Assembly: GCA_017412085.1 (NCBI GenBank) | Contig: JAFPYS010000002.1 | Coordinates: 1 to 64,000 of the forward strand | Length of the DNA: 64,000 bases | Direction: 5' to 3' | Source: Alphaproteobacteria bacterium | Lineage (GTDB): Bacteria; Pseudomonadota; Alphaproteobacteria; CAAHEQ01; UBA3637 | Part shown: positions 34,470-54,646 of the stretch, piece after piece | Layout of the letters: each line of letters opens with the position of its first letter | Numbering within the stretch: position 1 is the stretch's first letter | Position numbers and translations under genes: made by a program | The notes under the pieces: model-generated | Seen by the model: the letters and a program-made list of their open reading frames with translations, nothing else | What the model was told of the DNA's origin: nothing | Databases searched by the model: none

Positions 34470-34645
34470 ACAACACCTAAATGTTAATATTGTATTAAAT
34501 TTTATAACAATTACTTAAAATCTTCAAATTTTAACCAAATTTTTCTTGATTATTCAAAATTAGAAAGCTTAAAACTACCCTGTAAAAGGTGCTGAGTAAC
34601 TTTGGCACGAAGTTTAATTTTGTTAACAAAAGAAAGGAATATAAA

Positions 34646-35065
34646 ATGATGAAGAATGAATCCGGCCGTTCAATGGTCGAAATGTTGGGTGTGTTAGCCA
34701 TTATTGGTGTGTTATCCGTTGGTGGTATTGCTGGTTACACAATGGCGATGCGCAAATACAAAGCAAACGAAATTATGAATGCAGCCTCCATGATGGCCAT
34801 CTATTGCCAAACAAATGATTGTACTGCCAATGCTGGTGTAACTTATCGTACGGCATATCTGAATGGTGATACCGATGCAAAACTTCCTGGCAACGCAAGC
34901 GCAATTACAGGTAAAGATACATCCGGCGTGATTACCGTTGCAATTACAGCTGACAGCGCCGATGTGGCTAAAGCCATTAACGACATGGCTGGTTCCGCAT
35001 CAGGAATTAGCGTAAACTCAGCATACACGACTAACTCAACTGCCATTACCTTGAAAGTAAACTAA
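34646..35065 (+). CDS. Type IV pilin-like protein
   Basis: 139 residues from ATGATG at 34646, chosen because AAAGG lies about eight bases upstream. A short leader (MMKNESG) ends in Gly before RSMVEMLGVLAIIGVL, giving Glu at +5 and a long hydrophobic N-terminal helix, so a prepilin peptidase substrate. The +1 residue would be Arg, unlike the usual Phe/Met. Two cysteines (IYCQTNDC) lie close together, with a small C-terminal beta domain rich in Ala/Thr/Ser. A strong terminator follows directly, so the gene forms its own unit before two glycosyltransferase genes. Confidence 0.85.
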   Translation: MMKNESGRSMVEMLGVLAIIGVLSVGGIAGYTMAMRKYKANEIMNAASMMAIYCQTNDCTANAGVTYRTAYLNGDTDAKLPGNASAITGKDTSGVITVAITADSADVAKAINDMAGSASGISVNSAYTTNSTAITLKVN

Positions 35066-42271: not shown

Positions 42272-45200
42272 TTATAGTCCAAAATGGAGCCCCACTAATG
42301 CACGCCAATCTGGCGCCGCACCCGCCACGTGATCTGGATTCAGACGAACCCCAAATTCGCTTTGGAAATGCACATCTTCTTGCAATGCATCCGTGTAATA
42401 AAAACCAACATCATACTCGCGTGCAGTTGGCTTCAAACTTGCATGAACCTCATCACGATAAACAACATCCTGATAAGCATCACGTGCCACAGGCAAATTA
42501 ACTGTCGCCACACCTTTGCGAACACGCAACGGGGAAACAAATTGCATACCTATTGTACGCTTGTCGTTAACATTCCATGCCGCCGTCACAGCAAAGCTGT
42601 CACTCTTTAGATTGGACATCTTCACCAAAGAATTACCATTATTCACATGTGTAACGCCCGAATAATACATTCCTTCAATGGTCACTGCATCCGTTAAATT
42701 CAATGTCACACCAGCCCCCACATAAGTTGTTCGGCTGTTACTAGATTTAAAGGCTCCTTTTCCCCACATCCCAAGGGTTGATCCTTGTTCATTAGACACG
42801 CCAGCAACCATTTTTAATCCAACTTTTTTCAAACCATTGTATTGCAAAGTACTTTGGAAAACAGATGCTTTGTTGTGATCCATATCATGCAAATCATCCT
42901 CGTCAACAAAACCATTTTGACCGACCTGTCCCGAAACTGTTGCTTGCCAATTTTTCCCAAAATCATAGCTGATTGCACTTCCCCATGCCTCCTTCATTTT
43001 GGCATAAGGTGCCAACATCAACCGCTCAAAATAAGTGCCTCCTGTTGTCTCTGTATTTTCTGTATAAAATGTCTTAAAACGCCATGCTGTTGTGGGACGA
43101 ACTTCCAAACTCATTGAACCATGGACCATTTGTGAATATACATCCGAACGACGCTCGGAATAGGCCATTGTGAATTTATCCGTATCTGCAACAACTTTTT
43201 CGTTTCCCCGCATAAAGGATTTAAAGCGACCTTCCTGTTTATTTTCCCGTTTTGCAACACGCACAAAAGAATCCGTCGGCACTTGAAAGGCTCGGTCAAA
43301 TTTATCCAACACAATCATTTCGGTCGGCAGAGCCTTCGAAACACCCGCAAAAACAGCAGGAATAGTGCTTGAAGAACTTGCGGCAGCAACATTCTCGCCA
43401 CTTGCCTTCTCTGATAAGACAATTTTTTGTAATCCCACCGGGTTCGTAGCTGCCTCTAAATTCAGCAAACCATGACCATACACTTCATCAACTCCCGGCT
43501 CACCCAAGTCCGTCGCCGTTTCCAACAAAATCTGCACAACCTGCTGATTTGTCAAATGGGGGAAGGCTCCTTTAATAACCGCTAAAGCACCAGAAACAAT
43601 TGGAGTAGCCATAGACGTACCGGCGCCAGCACCATAACCATACACGGGACCATCCGCTTCCACACTCTTTAACACAGTTGAGTAAATTTGCTTACTTTCA
43701 TCTCCCCCTGGTGCAGCGATACAGTAATCCTTTGTAAGTCCACATTGTGCCGAATATGAAGCCAACCCATCCAACTTATTGTTTAACGCCACAACAGTTA
43801 CCAATAAATTCTTTAAATTGTACGTATTACCATCATCGTGACGCTTTTTCCCGTTAAACATATCAGATAACGGTGCAATTGTGTACCATGACGGATCATA
43901 CGGTTTTTCATCCGAAGAATGATCGTAATTCCCCGCCGCAAAAACTAAAATTTTATTTTGCTTGGCGGCAGTACGATAGACATCCAACAAACGTTTATAA
44001 TTTGCTGTACTTATGACCGTATCAAATGCGCTAACAGCTGCAGCCTTATCTTCAAATCTCACATTGGCTGACGAAGCCAAACTTAAATTTGTAATGTCCG
44101 CCAACTCCACGGCCTTGCTGATTCCTTCGTGTGATTGCATGTCAAAGTCAATTTTTACAGGAACAATATCCACATTGTAGGCAACGCCCATCATTCCTTC
44201 GTCGTTCTTGGTTGCCCCAATAATACCCGCAACATGTGTTCCATGATTTGTAAGATCATTTTGTGCCGTAACAGAACCCAGAAGACTCGTCCCAGCCACA
44301 CAATTACCCTCTGTATCAGATTCCGTACAAGTCACCTTTGCCAAAACTCTCTGTCCATCAACAGTTGCGCCCGTATCTAACCACCACACTTTCTCCCCAG
44401 CTTCCTCGGTATAGAAACGATCGTATCGATGGACTTGACCTGACGTATCCACAACCACCCATGTTGGAGCAATGTGCGGCTTCGGATTTGTGGCTTCATA
44501 ACTGTAATTAGCGTATTTTTGCGAATAAATTGCCCAGCGCCATTCTGGAAGTTCCTTGCTGTCAATAGCATCATTAACTGTGCTCGATGGCGTCCAGTTT
44601 TCATATAAATACGCCACGCCCTCTGTTTCGTTATACTGCCAACATTTTGCGGCATTATTCGCTGAACAAACACCATAAACAAAATTATAACCCGTTCCAA
44701 TGTTTGCCTTCAAATCAGGATGCATTACCCAAACACCTTCATCCACAACGGCAACCTTTACTTTGTCGGTTGAAATGGCCTTTTCTCCCGCCCCGATTAA
44801 GGTCCCATCCGATTTGCGGTTAACCTTGTATCCCGTATAACCCCTAGCATACGCAGAAGAAGCCTTAACCTGCCCCAAAAAATCAATGCTATTGTTAAAT
44901 GAGTCAGCTTTATATTCTGATGTCTCAAAGCTTTTTGCTTCTAATTTTAATGGTGCCGTCCATACATAGTCATTGTCATCCCCACCAGAAGATGAACCAC
45001 TACTTCCGCCATGCCCCAATGCTAAAGCAGCACCAACAGCGACACCTCCCAACAAAATCTCACCCACACCTAATGTCGGAAAATCAAATCCCTTAACCCC
45101 AGATTCTCCCCATCCACCAACCGGTGCAGCCTCTGTAAAATGCCCATTATAAAATGTGTGTGGTGCAGGTTGGTTGGCATAAAATTCTGCCACCGTTCTT

Positions 45201-45484
45201 TGCGGCAACTGACGAACACAAGATACGTATGGAGATGCCCCTTGGGTCAACAATAACTCGTATCCCTCATAATCGCCCTGAACAATGGTCCCACAAAGTG
45301 GCGTCATTCCGTTGGGCCCCGGAGAATTCATGTCAATTCCCATAGATCTTAGCTGTTTTAACGCCTTTAAATCCCTAGCATTAACAATTTCCATGATACG
45401 TGTATAATACTGACCCGTCATTGCCATCGCTGACTGGCTTGCCATCAAAAGACCCAACAAAATCAATCCACCGTATCTGACCAT
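42272..45484 (-). CDS. Ankyrin-subtilase autotransporter, intact catalytic triad
   Basis: 1,070 residues. Order: signal peptide (ILLGLLMASQSAMA), one or two ankyrin-like repeats (about 28-90, PNGMTPLCGTIVQGDYEGYE), hydrophobic segment (about 139-157) and a Gly/Ser run, S8 domain, and an outer-membrane beta-barrel of about 280 residues ending VGLHFGL. The triad reads D248 (VAVVDEG), H414 (NHGTHVAG), S624 (GTSMATP), with oxyanion N519 (FAAGN). About 165 residues separate Asp and His, far more than in classical subtilisins. Likely displays a serine protease at the cell surface. Its ribosome site (AGGGGG) overlaps the thpR stop, so it is co-transcribed with thpR. Confidence 0.9.
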   Translation of the reverse strand: MVRYGGLILLGLLMASQSAMAMTGQYYTRIMEIVNARDLKALKQLRSMGIDMNSPGPNGMTPLCGTIVQGDYEGYELLLTQGASPYVSCVRQLPQRTVAEFYANQPAPHTFYNGHFTEAAPVGGWGESGVKGFDFPTLGVGEILLGGVAVGAALALGHGGSSGSSSGGDDNDYVWTAPLKLEAKSFETSEYKADSFNNSIDFLGQVKASSAYARGYTGYKVNRKSDGTLIGAGEKAISTDKVKVAVVDEGVWVMHPDLKANIGTGYNFVYGVCSANNAAKCWQYNETEGVAYLYENWTPSSTVNDAIDSKELPEWRWAIYSQKYANYSYEATNPKPHIAPTWVVVDTSGQVHRYDRFYTEEAGEKVWWLDTGATVDGQRVLAKVTCTESDTEGNCVAGTSLLGSVTAQNDLTNHGTHVAGIIGATKNDEGMMGVAYNVDIVPVKIDFDMQSHEGISKAVELADITNLSLASSANVRFEDKAAAVSAFDTVISTANYKRLLDVYRTAAKQNKILVFAAGNYDHSSDEKPYDPSWYTIAPLSDMFNGKKRHDDGNTYNLKNLLVTVVALNNKLDGLASYSAQCGLTKDYCIAAPGGDESKQIYSTVLKSVEADGPVYGYGAGAGTSMATPIVSGALAVIKGAFPHLTNQQVVQILLETATDLGEPGVDEVYGHGLLNLEAATNPVGLQKIVLSEKASGENVAAASSSSTIPAVFAGVSKALPTEMIVLDKFDRAFQVPTDSFVRVAKRENKQEGRFKSFMRGNEKVVADTDKFTMAYSERRSDVYSQMVHGSMSLEVRPTTAWRFKTFYTENTETTGGTYFERLMLAPYAKMKEAWGSAISYDFGKNWQATVSGQVGQNGFVDEDDLHDMDHNKASVFQSTLQYNGLKKVGLKMVAGVSNEQGSTLGMWGKGAFKSSNSRTTYVGAGVTLNLTDAVTIEGMYYSGVTHVNNGNSLVKMSNLKSDSFAVTAAWNVNDKRTIGMQFVSPLRVRKGVATVNLPVARDAYQDVVYRDEVHASLKPTAREYDVGFYYTDALQEDVHFQSEFGVRLNPDHVAGAAPDWRALVGLHFGL

Positions 45485-47774: not shown

Positions 47775-48508
47775 TGCGTTATAAATTTATCATTGAATAT
47801 GACGGCACACCTTTTATCGGCTGGCAAAAACAGGCCGGTCAACTTTCCGTTCAGGGCGTGATAGAAGACGCCCTTAAAACATCTCTTCGCCACCCCGTCA
47901 CCGTTTGGGGATCGGGTCGCACAGACACAGGTGTTCATGCCATCGCTCAGGTGGCCCACATTGAAACAAAAGAAAAATTGGACACTTATCGTTTATTTGA
48001 ATCTTTAAATGCGCTTGTGCGCCCTTATCCCATTAGCATAAAAAGTATCGAAGAGGTTGATGATGATTTTCATGCACGCTTTTCAGCAAAAATGCGTCAC
48101 TATATTTATAAAATTCAAAACACGCCTTATCCACCTTCCATTAACAAGGGACATGTTTGGTGGGTGCGCCCCAAATTAAACATTCAAAAAATGCAACAAG
48201 CCGCCGATGTGATGTTGGGTAAGCATGATTTTTCCACCTTTCGCGCCAGCGAATGCCAAGCAAAAAGCCCCGTAAAAACGCTCTCTCATTTTGAGATTAT
48301 TCAAAGCGGTGACCTCATTGAGTGTCATGTCAGCGCGAAATCTTTTTTACACCACCAAGTTCGCAACATGGTTGGCACGTTAGAATTGGTCGGTGAAGGG
48401 AAATGGTCGGTGGAAAAATTTAAAAAAGCATTTGATGCTTGTGACCGCACAAAAGGGGGACCAACCGCTCCACCTGAAGGTTTATATTTTGAATCTGTGG
48501 AATATTAA
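47774..48508 (+). CDS. truA: tRNA pseudouridine(38-40) synthase
   Basis: 244 residues. Modifies uridines 38-40 in the anticodon arm. Start RYKFIIEYDGTPFIGWQKQ and catalytic Asp in GSGRTDTGVHA are diagnostic; SFLHHQVRNMVGTL and the C-terminal APPEGLYF are family motifs. Last gene of def-fmt-truA; ends convergent with rluD (four-base overlap), with no hairpin between. Confidence 0.97.
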   Translation: MRYKFIIEYDGTPFIGWQKQAGQLSVQGVIEDALKTSLRHPVTVWGSGRTDTGVHAIAQVAHIETKEKLDTYRLFESLNALVRPYPISIKSIEEVDDDFHARFSAKMRHYIYKIQNTPYPPSINKGHVWWVRPKLNIQKMQQAADVMLGKHDFSTFRASECQAKSPVKTLSHFEIIQSGDLIECHVSAKSFLHHQVRNMVGTLELVGEGKWSVEKFKKAFDACDRTKGGPTAPPEGLYFESVEY

Positions 48509-49485
48509 AGTTTTTCCAACTTTTCTTTTAGCTCTTGCATATCAGACGGCATCGGCACTTCAAAAACCAACTGTTTCCCCGTTGTCGGATGAACAAATCC
48601 CAACACGCCAGCATGCAATGCCTGCCTTGGAAAATCACGCACAAAATCCGGTGCATTTTTAGGTGGATGGCCATAGGTATAATCGCCCACAAGCGGATGG
48701 TGAATAGAACTCATGTGTACACGAATTTGATGCGTTCTCCCCGTTTCCAAAACGCACTTTACATGGCTCACTATACCACCACCAAACACGGCCAAGCGTT
48801 TATAATGCGTTACGGCCGATTTTCCTCCAGTCTTCACTAAAGCCATTTTTTGACGATTCGTACTTGATCTTCCAATATTGCCTTCAATACGCCCTTCTTC
48901 CTGTTCAACCTTACCCCAAACAAAGGCTTGATATTCACGTTGAATAGAATGCACCTCAAATTGTTTTGCCAATGATAAGTGAGCCTTATCATTTTTGGCC
49001 ACAACCAACAAACCGGATGTGTCTTTATCAATGCGATGCACAATACCTGGACGTTGCACGCCCCCCACGCCAGATAAACTGTCGTGACAATGAAATAACA
49101 AACCATTTACCAATGTGTGTTCCCAATTTCCGGCGCCTGGATGCACAACCAAACCTGCCGGCTTATTTACCACCAAAACATCATCATCTTCATAAACAAT
49201 ATCCAGTGGCATATCTTCTGGCTTCACATCGGCGGGCTCTGGCGCCGGCAAATCAATCTCAAACACCTGCCCCTTTTCGACCTTCATATCCGGATGATTG
49301 GCAAAAAAGCCCGTGCTTTTCACTTTTACTTTGTTGTCTTCAATCAATCGAATAAACGCATTACGAGACACATCGGGAAACGTGTCCGCCAAAAACTTAT
49401 CTAACCGCTTTCTGGAATTCCCATCAGAAACAGGCGGAGTTACCAATAAATTCGGATATTCTTCTAAATCGACCTCATCTATCAT
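48505..49485 (-). CDS. rluD: 23S rRNA pseudouridine synthase, RluD type
   Basis: 326 residues from the ATG at 49485. S4 domain (RKRLDKFLADTFPDVSRNAF), then RluA-family catalytic domain with HRIDKDTSGLLV (catalytic Asp) and ETGRTHQIRVHM. The longer frame reaching 49539 is rejected because a promoter (49493-49521) lies inside it. That promoter puts the transcription start within a few bases of the ATG and no ribosome site is present, so the mRNA is probably leaderless. Which uridines are targeted (RluD versus RluC sites) is inferred from the S4 plus LHAGVLGF pattern. Confidence 0.93.
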   Translation of the reverse strand: MIDEVDLEEYPNLLVTPPVSDGNSRKRLDKFLADTFPDVSRNAFIRLIEDNKVKVKSTGFFANHPDMKVEKGQVFEIDLPAPEPADVKPEDMPLDIVYEDDDVLVVNKPAGLVVHPGAGNWEHTLVNGLLFHCHDSLSGVGGVQRPGIVHRIDKDTSGLLVVAKNDKAHLSLAKQFEVHSIQREYQAFVWGKVEQEEGRIEGNIGRSSTNRQKMALVKTGGKSAVTHYKRLAVFGGGIVSHVKCVLETGRTHQIRVHMSSIHHPLVGDYTYGHPPKNAPDFVRDFPRQALHAGVLGFVHPTTGKQLVFEVPMPSDMQELKEKLEKL

Positions 49486-49492
49486 GGCAATC

Positions 49493-49521
49493 AGTATATC
49501 AAAAACCTGATCTTTTCGCAA
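49493..49521 (-). promoter_or_regulatory. Promoter of rluD, giving a probably leaderless mRNA
   Basis: Minus-strand TTGCGA (49516-49521), 17 bases, TATACT (49493-49498); only seven bases separate the -10 from the ATG. Confidence 0.65.
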
Positions 49522-49529
49522 ACTTTTTA

Positions 49530-49558
49530 TTGACACCAACTTCAGAACACGTTAATAT
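49530..49558 (+). promoter_or_regulatory. Promoter of the FliF-FliG fusion gene
   Basis: TTGACA (49530-49535), 17 bases, TAATAT (49553-49558), about 40 bases before the TTG start. It is back to back with the rluD promoter, nine bases between the two -35 boxes. Confidence 0.7.
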
Positions 49559-49598
49559 CTTAGTACGAAGGGAATTTAAAAAAAAGAAAGGGAAGGTT

Positions 49599-51320
49599 TT
49601 GGCTCAAAAAAACAATGGGATAAAAGTTCTGTTTTTCCTCGTACTGGTTGTTTGTATTGTATGCGCAGCCACATTGTTTTTAGTGCCTACTTGCCAATCA
49701 ACCCTTTCGCCTGTTTTATCTTCTGAAAATGAAAATTTTTTAACCCTACAACAAAAGTATGCCCGGCAACAAGAAAGAATAATTTTAAATTTACTGGAAC
49801 CAGTCGTGGGACGCGGTCATGTACGCGCTTCTGTTCGATTGGATTTAAATCTAAAAAATGCACGGCATAATTTACACACATATACGCCTCAACCAGAAAA
49901 AGGCGTTATTTCTCAACAAGTTTCCGAAAAGGAAATTCAAAATCTTATTCAAAAACAAAATGTCAGCATCATCATAGATGGCAACACAAGAAAAGGGGAT
50001 AATGGAATTTACCAAGCACGCACAGGCCAAGAGATGGCTAATTATAAGCGCCTTGTCCAAAGTGGTATTGGATTTGACTCTCAGCGTGGAGATACGTTGG
50101 AAATTATAAACATGCCCTTTGTTAAAAGGTTGCATTCAAAATCCAACTCTATCTTTTTATTTATCATTGCTTTGCTTTTAATTGGCGCTGGTCTCTCTTT
50201 CATTTCCATGAGTTTTGCACACTGTGCTCATTCCTGGCGTAAAGAAGCCAAAGCAATGCAATTTTCAACAGATATTTTGGATAAAATAACTGATAATCCA
50301 ACTAGAGCTATTTCTGTAATAAAAAATTGGATTTACATGCCCGTATCCTCTAAAGGCTCAGATTGGACCCCTATTCAAAAAGTTGGCATCATATTGTTGG
50401 CATTAGATGAAAGTGTCGTGCGTCAAATTCTGATAGCATTGGATGACAATGAGGTGCGCCGGGTTGCAAAGACTATGACCACGCTTGGCGTTATTCCTCC
50501 ACAAGAATCCGCCCGCGTTTTGACAGAACTATATGACGCAATGACGAACGGATCTGCTGTGGTTGGAAATCCCACACGAGTTCAGCAAATTTTGGCCGAA
50601 AGCCCTAAAGAAGAAACGTTGAAATTCAAAGAAACATTACAACCCACAAATTCGTCATTATGGGATGAATTTGCTGCTCTAAATTCCGAAACATTGGCCC
50701 CACGTTTAAGTAATTTACGCCCAGAAATCGTGGCTTACATCTTGTATCGTTTGCCCGCCGAAAAAGCAAGTGATTTATTACAAAATCTTCCCGACAACAG
50801 GGTCACACAAATTTTAATCCACCTGAGTCATATCGGATATATCAGTAACACAACAAGCGCCAAAATGGAGCAAGAGGCTCTTGTAATTGCACGAAACATA
50901 TTAAACACTGTTCACACCCCCACGGGTACAGAAAAAACATCGGATATTTTGTCTTGCATGGCCAAGACGCCCAAAGCTCAATCCGTTTTAAAAGATCTAA
51001 ATCAAAGCGAACCATTTTTAGCCCGAAAACTCGCAGCAAAGCTCATTCGATTTGATGACCTATCTCACTGGCCAGATGAAGTTATTCAAACCATTTTGCG
51101 CCACACACCAAGAGCGACTGCAATTTTGGCTCTGGTAAATGCACCAGATTCAGTTATGCAAACCATCCAACATAGTATCCCAGATTCTCTTTGGCCTCAG
51201 CTACAAGAAGAAATCAAACAAAAGGGGAAGTCTGTACGCCCAGAGCAAATTGAACAAGCGCGCGAGCAAATGATAGAAACAACTCGAACACTTTTAAATC
51301 AAGGAAAAATTCAACTTTAG
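49599..51320 (+). CDS. Fusion of FliF RBM3 region to FliG
   Basis: 573 residues from TTG at 49599 (AGGGA five bases upstream; the frame-open TTG at 49530 is the -35 box). Membrane span about 9-30; RBM3-like periplasmic domain about 45-175 (LLEPVVGRGHVRASVRLDLN, GDTLEIINMPF, as in FliF); second span about 184-206; cytoplasmic FliG-like part about 255-573 (VGIILLALDESVVRQI; RPEIVAYILYRLPAEKASDL; final EQAREQMIETTRTLLNQGKI). FliF RBM1 and RBM2 are absent. In FliG the EHPQ motif and the charged torque helix (here WPDEVIQTILRHTPRATAI) are not conserved. No flagellar gene adjoins except the FlhG-like one. A membrane ring or scaffold rather than a motor is inferred. Confidence 0.85.
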   Translation: MAQKNNGIKVLFFLVLVVCIVCAATLFLVPTCQSTLSPVLSSENENFLTLQQKYARQQERIILNLLEPVVGRGHVRASVRLDLNLKNARHNLHTYTPQPEKGVISQQVSEKEIQNLIQKQNVSIIIDGNTRKGDNGIYQARTGQEMANYKRLVQSGIGFDSQRGDTLEIINMPFVKRLHSKSNSIFLFIIALLLIGAGLSFISMSFAHCAHSWRKEAKAMQFSTDILDKITDNPTRAISVIKNWIYMPVSSKGSDWTPIQKVGIILLALDESVVRQILIALDDNEVRRVAKTMTTLGVIPPQESARVLTELYDAMTNGSAVVGNPTRVQQILAESPKEETLKFKETLQPTNSSLWDEFAALNSETLAPRLSNLRPEIVAYILYRLPAEKASDLLQNLPDNRVTQILIHLSHIGYISNTTSAKMEQEALVIARNILNTVHTPTGTEKTSDILSCMAKTPKAQSVLKDLNQSEPFLARKLAAKLIRFDDLSHWPDEVIQTILRHTPRATAILALVNAPDSVMQTIQHSIPDSLWPQLQEEIKQKGKSVRPEQIEQAREQMIETTRTLLNQGKIQL

Positions 51321-51330
51321 AGGTTTTTCC

Positions 51331-51939
51331 ATGCCATTTATTTTACAACAAGCTTCCTCGCAAAAGAAAACGATTTTTTATACTTTAACATCTGCCGCTC
51401 CTCATACAGGGGTTAGTTTTGTCGTTTGTAAAACAGCACAAAATTATGCCAAACAAGGAAAAAAAGTTTTGATTTTTGATGCTTTGCTGGGGCTTAAAAA
51501 TTACCCCTTACATAACCCAAATCAAAATAAAATTTCTGCAGTGTTAGATGGGCTTACTCCACTCACCGAGCTGATCATGCCACAGCAAAAAAACATTGAT
51601 GTTATCACAGGAATGTCAAATTGTAATATCAGTGCTATCCCCCATGCCAATCAACAACGAATTAAAAACGATCTACAACAATTAGCATCAAATTATGACG
51701 TCGTTTTAATTGATTTACCAAGCTCCATAACCTCTTCTATTTTTTCTGATTATGAAAACATTCAATGGGTCTCAACCGCCGATCAAACGATCTTACTTAA
51801 AACACTAAAAAAAATCGCACCTTTTTCCAATCCCAGCTTAATCTTAAATCAAGTAAAAAATCATGAAGAACGCAATGCCTCTCATCTTTTTATTAAAAAT
51901 TTAGTACCACAATGTCAGATTATCGACTTTTTTGAATAA
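51331..51939 (+). CDS. FlhG/MinD-like protein with degenerate P-loop
   Basis: 202 residues, shorter than FlhG/FleN (about 270-300). The fold is recognisable: SAAPHTGVSFVVCKTAQNYA at the Walker A position, KKVLIFDALLGLKNYPLH (FlhG: DADLGLAN), and YDVVLIDLPSSITSS at Walker B. The deviant Walker A lacks both Lys and the Gly-Lys-Thr/Ser (PHTGVSF), so ATP binding is doubtful. FlhG-type ATPases set flagellar number and place; here it follows the FliF-FliG fusion by ten bases (AGAGG before ATG), which supports a shared complex. Confidence 0.75.
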   Translation: MPFILQQASSQKKTIFYTLTSAAPHTGVSFVVCKTAQNYAKQGKKVLIFDALLGLKNYPLHNPNQNKISAVLDGLTPLTELIMPQQKNIDVITGMSNCNISAIPHANQQRIKNDLQQLASNYDVVLIDLPSSITSSIFSDYENIQWVSTADQTILLKTLKKIAPFSNPSLILNQVKNHEERNASHLFIKNLVPQCQIIDFFE

Positions 51940-51983: not shown

Positions 51984-52018
51984 TATCATAGTATGGTTTT
52001 ATCACACAAGGAATGACT

Positions 52019-54646
52019 ATGAAATTTAAGAAATTGTTTGGCTCAGCCAACGAACGCTATCTCAAAAAGTTTGCAAAATATATCAAAGAAATCAATGCGC
52101 TTGAAGAACAATATCAAAAGCTTTCCGATGAAGAATTGAAAGCAAAAACCCCCGCTTTTAAGGAACGCCTTCAAAATGGGGAAACTTTGTGGGATATTTT
52201 GCCCGAAGCCTTTGCAACGGTGCGGGAAGGCGCAAAACGTGCCTTGGGATTACGGCCTTTCGATGTTCAATTACTGGGCGGTATCGTTTTATTTGACAAT
52301 AAAATTGCCGAGATGAAAACTGGCGAGGGTAAAACCTTGGTCGCCACATTGCCTGTTTATCTAAACGCTTTGACTGGCAAGGGCGTCCATGTTGTTACGG
52401 TCAACGATTATTTGGCCGCTCGTGACAGCGAATGGATGGGCAAAGTCTATCGCTTTTTAGGCCTCACTGTTGGCTGTATCATTGCCAATATGAGCAAAGA
52501 ACAACGCAAAGCCGCCTATGAATGTGACATCACTTATGCCACCAATAACGAGCTTGGATTTGACTATTTGCGTGATAATATGTGTGTCAATAAAAACGAA
52601 ATGGTTCAACGCCCTTTCAATTATGCTATTGTGGATGAAGTGGACTCGATCTTAATCGACGAAGCCAGAACGCCTCTTATTATTTCTGGGCAAGCAGAAG
52701 ATTCTTCTGAACGCTATATTGCCGTGGACAAGATTATGTCGGGTGTTCAACCAGAACACTATGAAAAAGACGAAAAACACAGAAATGTCACACTAACAGA
52801 TGCAGGTATTCAATTTGTAGAAGATGCCCTGCATAACGCAGGCTTGATGGTCGGTGGACTGTATGAAACAGACAATATCGCTTTCGTACACCACGTGGAA
52901 CAAGCCTTGCGCGCGCACACACTTTTCCAAAAAGATGTGGATTACATTGTCAAAGATGGCAAAGTTATGATTATCGATGAATTTACAGGGCGCATTATGG
53001 ATGGCCGCAGATACTCCAACGGTCTTCATCAGGCGTTAGAAGCCAAGGAGGGTGTAGAGATTCAACCCGAAAACCAAACTCTGGCTTCCATCACATACCA
53101 GAACTATTTCCGCATGTATCCTCATTTGGCTGGTATGACAGGTACCGCCATGACAGAGGCCGCCGAATTTGATGATATTTATAAACTACAAGTGGTTGAT
53201 ATTCCGACAAACAAACCTGTCGCCCGCAAAGACGAACAAGATGCCATTTATCGCACAGCAGAAGAAAAATACGATGCCATTATCAAGGAAATTCAAAAAG
53301 TTCATGATCGTGGGCAACCCATTTTGGTTGGCACAACAAGTATCGAAAAATCTGAAATTTTGGCAAATCTATTAAAACAAAAAACAAATATTCCATTTAA
53401 TGTGTTGAATGCGCGCCACCATGAACAAGAGGCTCATATTATTGCACAAGCTGGCGTTCCTGGCGCAGTGACTATCGCCACAAACATGGCCGGTCGCGGA
53501 ACAGATATTCAATTGGGCGGCAATTTTGAGATGCGTTTTAACGAACAAAAAGAGGCTCACCCAGACATGGATGAAACTTTGTTGGCTGAAAAAATTAAAG
53601 CTGAGATTGCCGAGGGCAAACAAAAGGCCTTGGCTGCTGGTGGCTTATATGTTTTAGGTTCCGAACGCCATGAAAGTCGCCGTATCGATAACCAATTACG
53701 CGGCCGATCCGGTCGTCAAGGTGATCCCGGTCAATCCAAATTTTACGTCAGTTTGGAAGACGATCTGATGCGTATTTTTGGTTCCGAACGAATCGGACGT
53801 ATTTTGAAGACCATGGGTTTAAAACAAAATGAAGCTATTGAACATCCTTGGATCAGTAAGGCTATTGCCAAGGCGCAACAAAAAGTCGAAGAATATCACT
53901 TTGATGTGCGTAAAAACCTTCTGAAATTTGACGATGTTACAAATGATCAACGCAAAATTATCTATGAACAACGCAAAGAAATTATGGAAATGGATGACGT
54001 TTATCCTGTGATGCAAGATATGCGCCAAGACACCATTACATCCCTTGTTTATTCTATTGCACCGGAGCGCACTGCACCAGAAGATTGGAATGCCGAAGAA
54101 TTGCGTCAAGAAACAATTAAGTTACTTGGCATAGATGCCCCATTTGCAAGCTGGAAAAATGAAGCCGGCATTGAACCGCAAGTTATGATTGATCGGTTAA
54201 TGAAGTTGGCCGATGAAGCTTGGCAAGAAAAAACAAAGATTCTGCCCCCAGACTTTAAAAAAGATTTTGAAAAAACTTTGTTGATTCAAACAATTGATAC
54301 GCTGTGGAAAGAACATTTACAAAGTTTGGACTTCATGAAGACCTCTATTGGCTTGCGAGCCTATGGACAACAAAATCCTTTGAACGCCTTCAAGCAAGAA
54401 GCTTTTCATTTGTTCCAAAATTTGTTGGGACGCGTGCGTGAACGTTTAACGGAAACCATGGGACGTTTGGAATTGAAATTGGCACCAGAGCCACCATCCT
54501 CACAAACAGAGGAAACTCCTGAAACGCCCGCCGAACAAGATCCGATCCCTCCTGTTGACACAAAAAAAGAAATCGGACGCAATGATCCCTGCCCTTGTGG
54601 TTCCGGCAAAAAATACAAACACTGCTGCGGCAAATTAGATGCCTAA
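52019..54646 (+). CDS. secA: Preprotein translocase ATPase SecA
   Basis: 875 residues from the ATG at 52019 (AAGGA six bases upstream; another ATG two codons earlier is too close). Motor of the Sec pathway. Walker [15 protein letters not shown], Walker B in [24 protein letters not shown]-type region ([11 protein letters not shown]), helical scaffold [18 protein letters not shown], and C-terminal zinc-binding tail [13 protein letters not shown] for SecB and lipid binding. Full length. Overlaps the convergent sodB stop by 12 bases. Confidence 0.98.

Follow-up and report, generated by a model that had tools for sequence, protein, structure and literature searches.

A natural FliF(RBM3)-FliG fusion gene in a gut alphaproteobacterial order predicted to lack a flagellum

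A single gene of a small gut bacterium is confirmed, by the agreement of sequence profiles with a structure model, as encoding a natural fusion in which the RBM3 domain of the flagellar ring protein FliF lies between two membrane helices and is followed by the N, M and C domains of FliG. The gene lies in the stretch of 64,000 nucleotides analysed here (the window), which belongs to a draft genome of 967 kb that is 86% complete. It is almost certainly a derived rotor remnant kept by selection. A repurposed rotor ring, as opposed to decay, had been put forward in a sequence-only reading of the window; codon statistics and newly fixed residues make this well supported as an account of the gene's evolution, and the function is a prediction. 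The overall reading proposed here, that of a one-protein, non-rotating rotor ring reused as a static scaffold or landmark, is given an even chance. In the literature covered, which mostly excludes subscription papers and preprints, no natural FliF-FliG fusion and no flagellar motor without an export gate has been described.

Architecture of the fusion gene

Positions 49530-51320 of the forward strand form a single open frame of 596 aa. The features of the locus are listed below, with residues numbered on the 596-aa reading.

48505-49539, reverse strand: rluD (pseudouridine synthase), conserved left neighbour; start coordinate provisional
49530-49558, forward strand: promoter-like site TTGACA-17-TAATAT, 10 of 12 consensus matches and the top-scoring site of the region; overlaps the earliest TTG at which the frame could start
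49590-49596, forward strand: RBS-like GGGAAGG ahead of the likely start TTG 49599, from direct reading
49599-51320, forward strand: FliF(RBM3)-FliG fusion gene, 573 aa from TTG 49599 or 596 aa from TTG 49530
49611-49682, forward strand: first membrane helix, residues 28-51, from the AlphaFold model
49725-50117, forward strand: RBM3 domain, residues 66-196, with a long beta hairpin (98-149) and the motif RGDT
50142-50225, forward strand: second membrane helix, residues 205-232, from the AlphaFold model
50235-50333, forward strand: cytoplasmic helices, residues 236-268, from the alignment with the C-terminal tail of the separate mini-FliF and from the model
50367-50618, forward strand: FliG_N-like domain (Pfam)
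50688-50861, forward strand: FliG_M-like domain (Pfam), with RPEI in place of the FliM-binding E(H/Y)PQ
50994-51317, forward strand: FliG_C-like domain (Pfam), with W514, P551 and W555 specific to the fusion clade
51331-51939, forward strand: FlhG/MinD-like protein P0002, 202 aa, 10 bases downstream of the fusion; Walker A lost
52013-54646, forward strand: secA, conserved right neighbour

Translation probably starts at TTG 49599 and not at TTG 49530, since the latter lies inside the promoter-like site and the former is preceded by GGGAAGG. The promoter is rated as plausible, because the number of such sites in the region (8 observed against 6.8 expected by chance) does not exceed chance.

Pfam profiles match the fusion protein with 66 bits for YscJ_FliF_C, 66 for FliG_N, 39 for FliG_M and 69 for FliG_C, each above its curated cut-off. 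In phmmer searches of PDB sequences, residues 279-596 match full-length FliG (3hjl, 1.7e-21) and residues 140-198 match Salmonella FliF (6scn, 8.7e-5). The NCBIfam FliG equivalog TIGR00207 scores 78 bits, below its cut-off of 227. An AlphaFold model built on an alignment of 28 related sequences (mean pLDDT 83) contains the two membrane helices, the RBM3 domain with its collar hairpin between them, and FliG-like helices; its pTM is only 0.38, so the mutual placement of the domains is unreliable. Foldseek searches with this model return FliG structures (2e-11) and then FliF RBM3/collar rings (2e-8). Structure models of this kind are built from alignments containing known families and are biased towards those folds, a bias of which the sequence profiles are independent. 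The three FliG domains are all present and in order according to Pfam, phmmer and Foldseek, and profiles and model agree on a FliF RBM3 between two membrane helices. The natural fusion claimed in the sequence-only reading is therefore upheld by these methods, as it is by the same architecture in relatives, and the match of its N-terminal part to FliF RBM3 in profile searches leaves it unrefuted.

Between the second membrane helix and FliG_N, the window's fusion carries a stretch (DILDKITDNPTRAISVIKNWIY) that aligns with the C-terminal tail of the separate mini-FliF (AHELINTHTDDAVTVLRGWLY). Such tail-like helices are shared with the FliF MS ring, as are the two membrane helices around a periplasmic RBM3, the beta hairpin and the RGD(T/S) motif. 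However, the fusion has no RBM1/RBM2, is continuous with FliG and belongs to a genome with no export gate. In FliF, the inner ring that encloses the export gate is made of RBM1 and RBM2; as had been claimed, these domains are missing here, and the corresponding profile PF01514 finds no match in the fusion protein or in the window's genome. In contrast to ordinary FliG, the FliG part here is tethered to the membrane by being continuous with FliF, EHPQ and most of the conserved charged residues are gone, and the window's genome offers no FliM, FliN or stator to bind. Laboratory FliF-FliG fusions from Salmonella and Vibrio are likewise single chains of FliF and then FliG, and form membrane rings (PMC6079021, PMC11481574), but they keep RBM1/2 and come from flagellated species, whereas the window's fusion is natural, lacks RBM1/2 and is found across flagellum-less genera.

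Rotor genes in an order without a flagellum

The sampled order consists of one family with 13 genera (g1, the window's genus, and others numbered likewise) and 43 genomes, of which 27 reach a completeness of 90% or more with no more than 5% contamination. As the window's genome is a draft, claims of absence draw their weight from all 43 genomes. Profile searches found the export gate protein FlhA in none of the 43; the same search was positive in 15 of 24 genomes from other families of the class and in all four expected control genomes. FliF RBM1/2 and MotA_N were each absent from all 34 family genomes tested, the window's genome being among the MotA_N absences. Since MotA_N does not pick up the MotA-like proteins of relatives either, MotB_plug is the better stator test; this profile matches within the order only in eight genomes of g5, g8 and g9 and in none of the fusion clade. 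Searches of the window's genome gave no match to MotB_plug, to FliM/FliN or to rod and hook proteins (Flg_bb_rod), the last of these giving one weak match in the 34 family genomes. FliG_C was found in 35 of the 43 genomes, with a single match in the window's genome, and the FliF RBM3 profile in 29, several g2 fusions scoring below detection; FliM/FliN profiles match in g5, g7, g8, g9 and g13, and weakly in g12. Judged by its gene content, the order is without a flagellum and yet retains rotor parts.

An ordinary flagellum elsewhere in the window's genome is ruled out, given one FliG_C and no FlhA, RBM1/2, MotA_N, MotB_plug, FliM/FliN or rod/hook match; nor is the fusion a copy beside an intact flagellar set, as the genome holds no second FliG_C and no full FliF. 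The sole rod/hook-like match of the family (G015:C29:1017-1088, E 4.5e-5, a 137-aa frame) comes from a genus without FliG and is either a relic or chance. Missing flagellar machinery has been reported for the reduced gut genomes of the order Rs-D84 (PMC12306168), which is not equated here with the window's order. Genomes of the window's order reach 1.8 Mb.

The flagellated relative G054 carries two operons, fliF-fliG-278 aa-fliN-motA-458 aa-flhA-flhF-flhG and fliL-fliM-DUF6468-motE-OmpA-motB-TPR, in which the 278-aa and 458-aa genes stand, by position alone, in the places of fliH and of a regulator. The genera g5, g8 and g9 have operons of this type minus exactly these two genes and flhA, and their FliF is shortened to 283-317 aa with RBM3 only. 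They retain FliG, FliN, a PomA/MotA-like protein (NCBIfam PomA 6e-57, below the equivalog cut-off), FlhF, FlhG, FliL, FliM and DUF6468, together with MotE-like, OmpA-like, MotB_plug and TPR proteins. As predicted from these genes, the eight relatives in g5, g8 and g9 have a nearly complete motor with stators and are without export gate, RBM1/2 or axial proteins. Their motor loci include L057:7908-12762 and L070:2931-8680, with homologues in L058-L066, and the ion-binding motif of the MotB-like protein of G030 (LTFTDLMTLLLTFFVML) is intact.

In g7, the MotA-like, OmpA-like and MotB-like genes are lost as well. FliF and FliG are fused in g13, where FliN, FlhF (in two frames), FlhG and a divergent FliM are still present. 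The fusion remains with FlhF and FlhG in g2 and g11, with an FlhG-like protein and no flhF at the locus in g1, and alone at the rluD locus in g3. From g5 through g1 the neighbours are the same, with rluD on the left and secA on the right, although in g3, g9 and g13 only rluD is visible within the stretch compared. Because the fusion sits at the ancestral place of fliF-fliG-...-flhF-flhG between rluD and secA, the locus is best understood as a shrunken, vertically inherited fli operon, and the earlier statement that the gene lies far from any flagellar cluster was mistaken. Two further remnants lie outside this locus. In g2, a DUF6468-like protein is encoded shortly downstream of secA (L037:15526-15981), with no FliL/FliM operon detected otherwise, and in g12 (G021; L069:2662-4750) FliM-like, DUF6468-like and MotE-like proteins are kept in an 84% complete genome in which no FliG was found.

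The TM-RBM3-TM-FliG architecture occurs in g1, g2, g3, g11 and g13. In a tree of rluD and secA (midpoint root, some rows with one gene only), these genera are separated from the separate-gene genera g5, g7, g8 and g9 with 100/100 support; to judge from this topology, the fusion is shown to have arisen once, in a stator-less sister clade of the separate-gene clade. It is absent or undetected in some genomes of the order. In a pattern scan of public contigs, the only fusions in one frame came from seven MAG contigs of gut type (L071-L076 and L079; rumen, sheep rectum, roe-deer caecum, yak rumen and unnamed sources), the scan requiring an RGDT-like pattern that divergent fusions could escape. Every other complete match was a full-length FliF (about 550-600 aa), and where FliG was covered too, it had a frame of its own. 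An origin of the fusion in faulty assembly or a frameshift in an ordinary flagellated genome would have only the incomplete draft (86%) in its favour and has a negligible probability, since the fusion recurs in independent genomes and in the MAG contigs, the order has no export gate and the window's genome no rod or hook proteins. Moreover, the same architecture in g1 and four more genera, with pN well below pS, argues against both chance and an assembly join.

A shorter fusion without FliG_N, of about 415 aa where the frame is complete, occurs in six g1 genomes (G001, G003, G005, G006, G008 and G009), with loci at L035:9294-10541, L038:9626-10888, L039:5626-6876 and L043:4412-5509. It lies elsewhere on the chromosome than the long form: within the stretches compared, some of them on short contigs, rluD and secA are not its neighbours. 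In L035 these are ribosomal protein S4 and birA, and in most genomes a divergent FlhG-like protein adjoins.

Selection and residue turnover in the FliG part

Within g1, where synonymous sites are saturated, the long form of the fusion has a pN/pS of 0.36-0.51 and the short form one of 0.33-0.40; the sole unsaturated pair (in g13) gives a dN/dS of 0.06. The gene might be an inert relic, a decaying flagellar left-over with no present function. Such a relic would fit the fast evolution of the fusion (45-58% identity within g1 against about 90% for secA), its loss in several genera and the early stop close to the end of the G026 copy. However, the dN/dS of 0.06 and a pN/pS well under 1 largely refute it, frames of about 570-650 codons have stayed open in five genera, and a fusion of single origin has been retained across many splits. 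Residues newly fixed after the fusion also speak against a relic: at twelve positions, the fusion clade has fixed or nearly fixed residues (W514 and P551 among them, as well as the invariant W555, K469 and P495) that the remaining FliG proteins of the comparison seldom or never carry. This suggests that the function changed and was not lost. Inert decay is accordingly judged improbable, and a rotor remnant under selection is the preferred reading.

What has been lost from the FliG part was followed over 52 positions conserved among 14 flagellated relatives. The stator-bearing genera retain 43-49 of these columns, g7 34, g13 32, g11 29, g2 20-22, g1 18-24 and g3 14-17. The motif E(H/Y)PQ is intact in g7, g13 and g2 and gone in g1, g3 and g11, all three without FliM/FliN. 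In these comparisons, the loss of FliG residues tracks the loss of partners. The claim that the torque residues and EHPQ are not conserved in the window's fusion holds, since 4 of the 14 conserved charged positions are kept and RPEI replaces the motif. From the close relatives g5, g8 and g9, which have MotA-like/MotB-like stators beside FliG, one could suspect that TolQR/ExbBD or another stator not recognised as such still drives a rotary motor in the window's genus. Those relatives, however, keep 10-13 of the 14 charged positions, and MotB_plug is missing from every fusion-clade genome; such a motor is considered highly improbable, a little more so than the relic. With no stator genes and the charged FliG residues gone, rotation is not expected, and in the window's genus the ring very probably does not rotate.

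A possible scaffold or landmark and its partner

In the mechanism proposed here, the ancestor of the order would have kept the motor and shed the export gate, the RBM1/2 domains of FliF and the axial components; one lineage would then have fused FliF to FliG and dropped the stator, and the window's genus would additionally have dropped FliM, FliN and FlhF. The RBM3 part would oligomerise in the periplasm and the FliG part would form a cytoplasmic ring or crown, together giving a wide ring in the inner membrane. This ring, with P0002, may act as a static scaffold or landmark, probably organising the cell pole, the envelope or the division site. Isolated RBM3 forms rings of native symmetry (PMC8786727), and in non-motile hosts, fusions of FliF to FliG enter the membrane and assemble there into rings (PMC6079021). 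An inner-membrane ring is thus to be expected, and the fusion protein probably forms one.

An RBM3 ring freed of RBM1/2 could instead be a channel or pore, a wide periplasmic gasket like that of the sporulation protein SpoIIIAG. The two would share an RBM3-type ring domain without RBM1/2, and SpoIIIAG itself is built as an RBM3 with a single hydrophobic anchor. The fusion model has SpoIIIAG among its Foldseek matches (5wc3, 6e-3, far below the FliF matches), and the mini-FliF of G014 matches the spore_III_AG model (2e-4). However, SpoIIIAG has no FliG part and belongs to another operon and organism group, and the similarity is weak. No SpoIIQ-like outer partner was seen beside the fusion gene, the retained FliG domains would have no place in a channel, and overproduced FliFFliG rings are reported to be apparently impermeable (PMC6079021). 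A channel is therefore considered unlikely, and the static ring is preferred.

The FlhG-like partner named in the sequence-only reading is P0002, identified as such by position, alignment and fold (4rz2, 4e-10, from a model whose alignment included true FlhG proteins). It shares the fold and operon place of the FlhG/FleN MinD-like ATPases, but is shorter, has no FlhF beside it in g1 and has lost both Walker A lysines, with SAAPHTGVS at the position of SGKGGVGKT; without these lysines it is probably not an ATPase. The Walker A of the other g1 copies is degenerate too. FlhG of g2, g5, g7, g8, g9, g11 and g13 has a near-canonical motif, SGKGGVGKT or close variants (SGKGGVGRT in g11, SGGGGNGKT in g13). 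With a pN/pS of 0.46-0.61, P0002 is itself under constraint; g3 apparently has no partner at the fusion locus, so the partner is not essential everywhere. We infer a contact between the fusion and P0002.

In polar flagellates, the FlhF/FlhG pair positions the MS ring (PMC12826062). The closest functional precedent for rotor proteins and FlhG acting outside motility is C. jejuni, in which the MS ring, the C ring and FlhG restrain polar division, although a fliG mutant has no minicell phenotype (PMC3228812). That bacterium, however, does build flagella, and its FlhG is a member of an active ATPase family. Since FlhF and FlhG are the companions kept longest and C. jejuni offers this polar-division precedent, a scaffold or landmark formed by the fusion and the FlhG-like protein is the best guess, at a little under an even chance, and a polar or division role is conjecture. 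MipZ, the usual division-site protein of alphaproteobacteria, occurs in every one of the order's 43 genomes (42 strong matches, one weak), so any division role of the fusion would be additional to the main division-site system. The argument for a division-site role from the absence of other systems is weakened accordingly.

In the usual view, the MS ring is there as the housing of the export gate and the support of the axle. A ring kept for long without either implies that the rotor has a second, separable function. It is put at about one chance in two that the whole gut order turned the flagellar motor into an internal machine, which would be an ion-driven rotor with stators in some genera and a stator-less one-protein ring in others. 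If true, such a machine would represent an unseen kind of organelle, rotary or scaffolding, with intermediates that show the dismantling and re-use of a motor. The genera form a natural series from the full motor with stators through a rotor without stator, the fusion with FlhF/FlhG and the fusion with a partner lacking the ATP motif to the fusion alone, which makes testable which motor parts serve without a flagellum. The flagellum-less motors with stators in relatives are a larger discovery than the window's fusion, and raise the question of what a motor without axial structure turns.

Two observations concern other genes. A prepilin-like family with the N-terminus GRSMVEMLGVLAIIGVLSVGG (window 34589-35065, L057:12772-14838 and L069:6148-6789) suggests a type II/IV pilus-like system as possible surface machinery of this non-flagellated order. 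On the reverse strand of the window, 42272-45484 encodes a 1070-aa protein with an ankyrin-like N-terminus, a subtilase domain and a C-terminal part that, by eye, resembles an autotransporter barrel.
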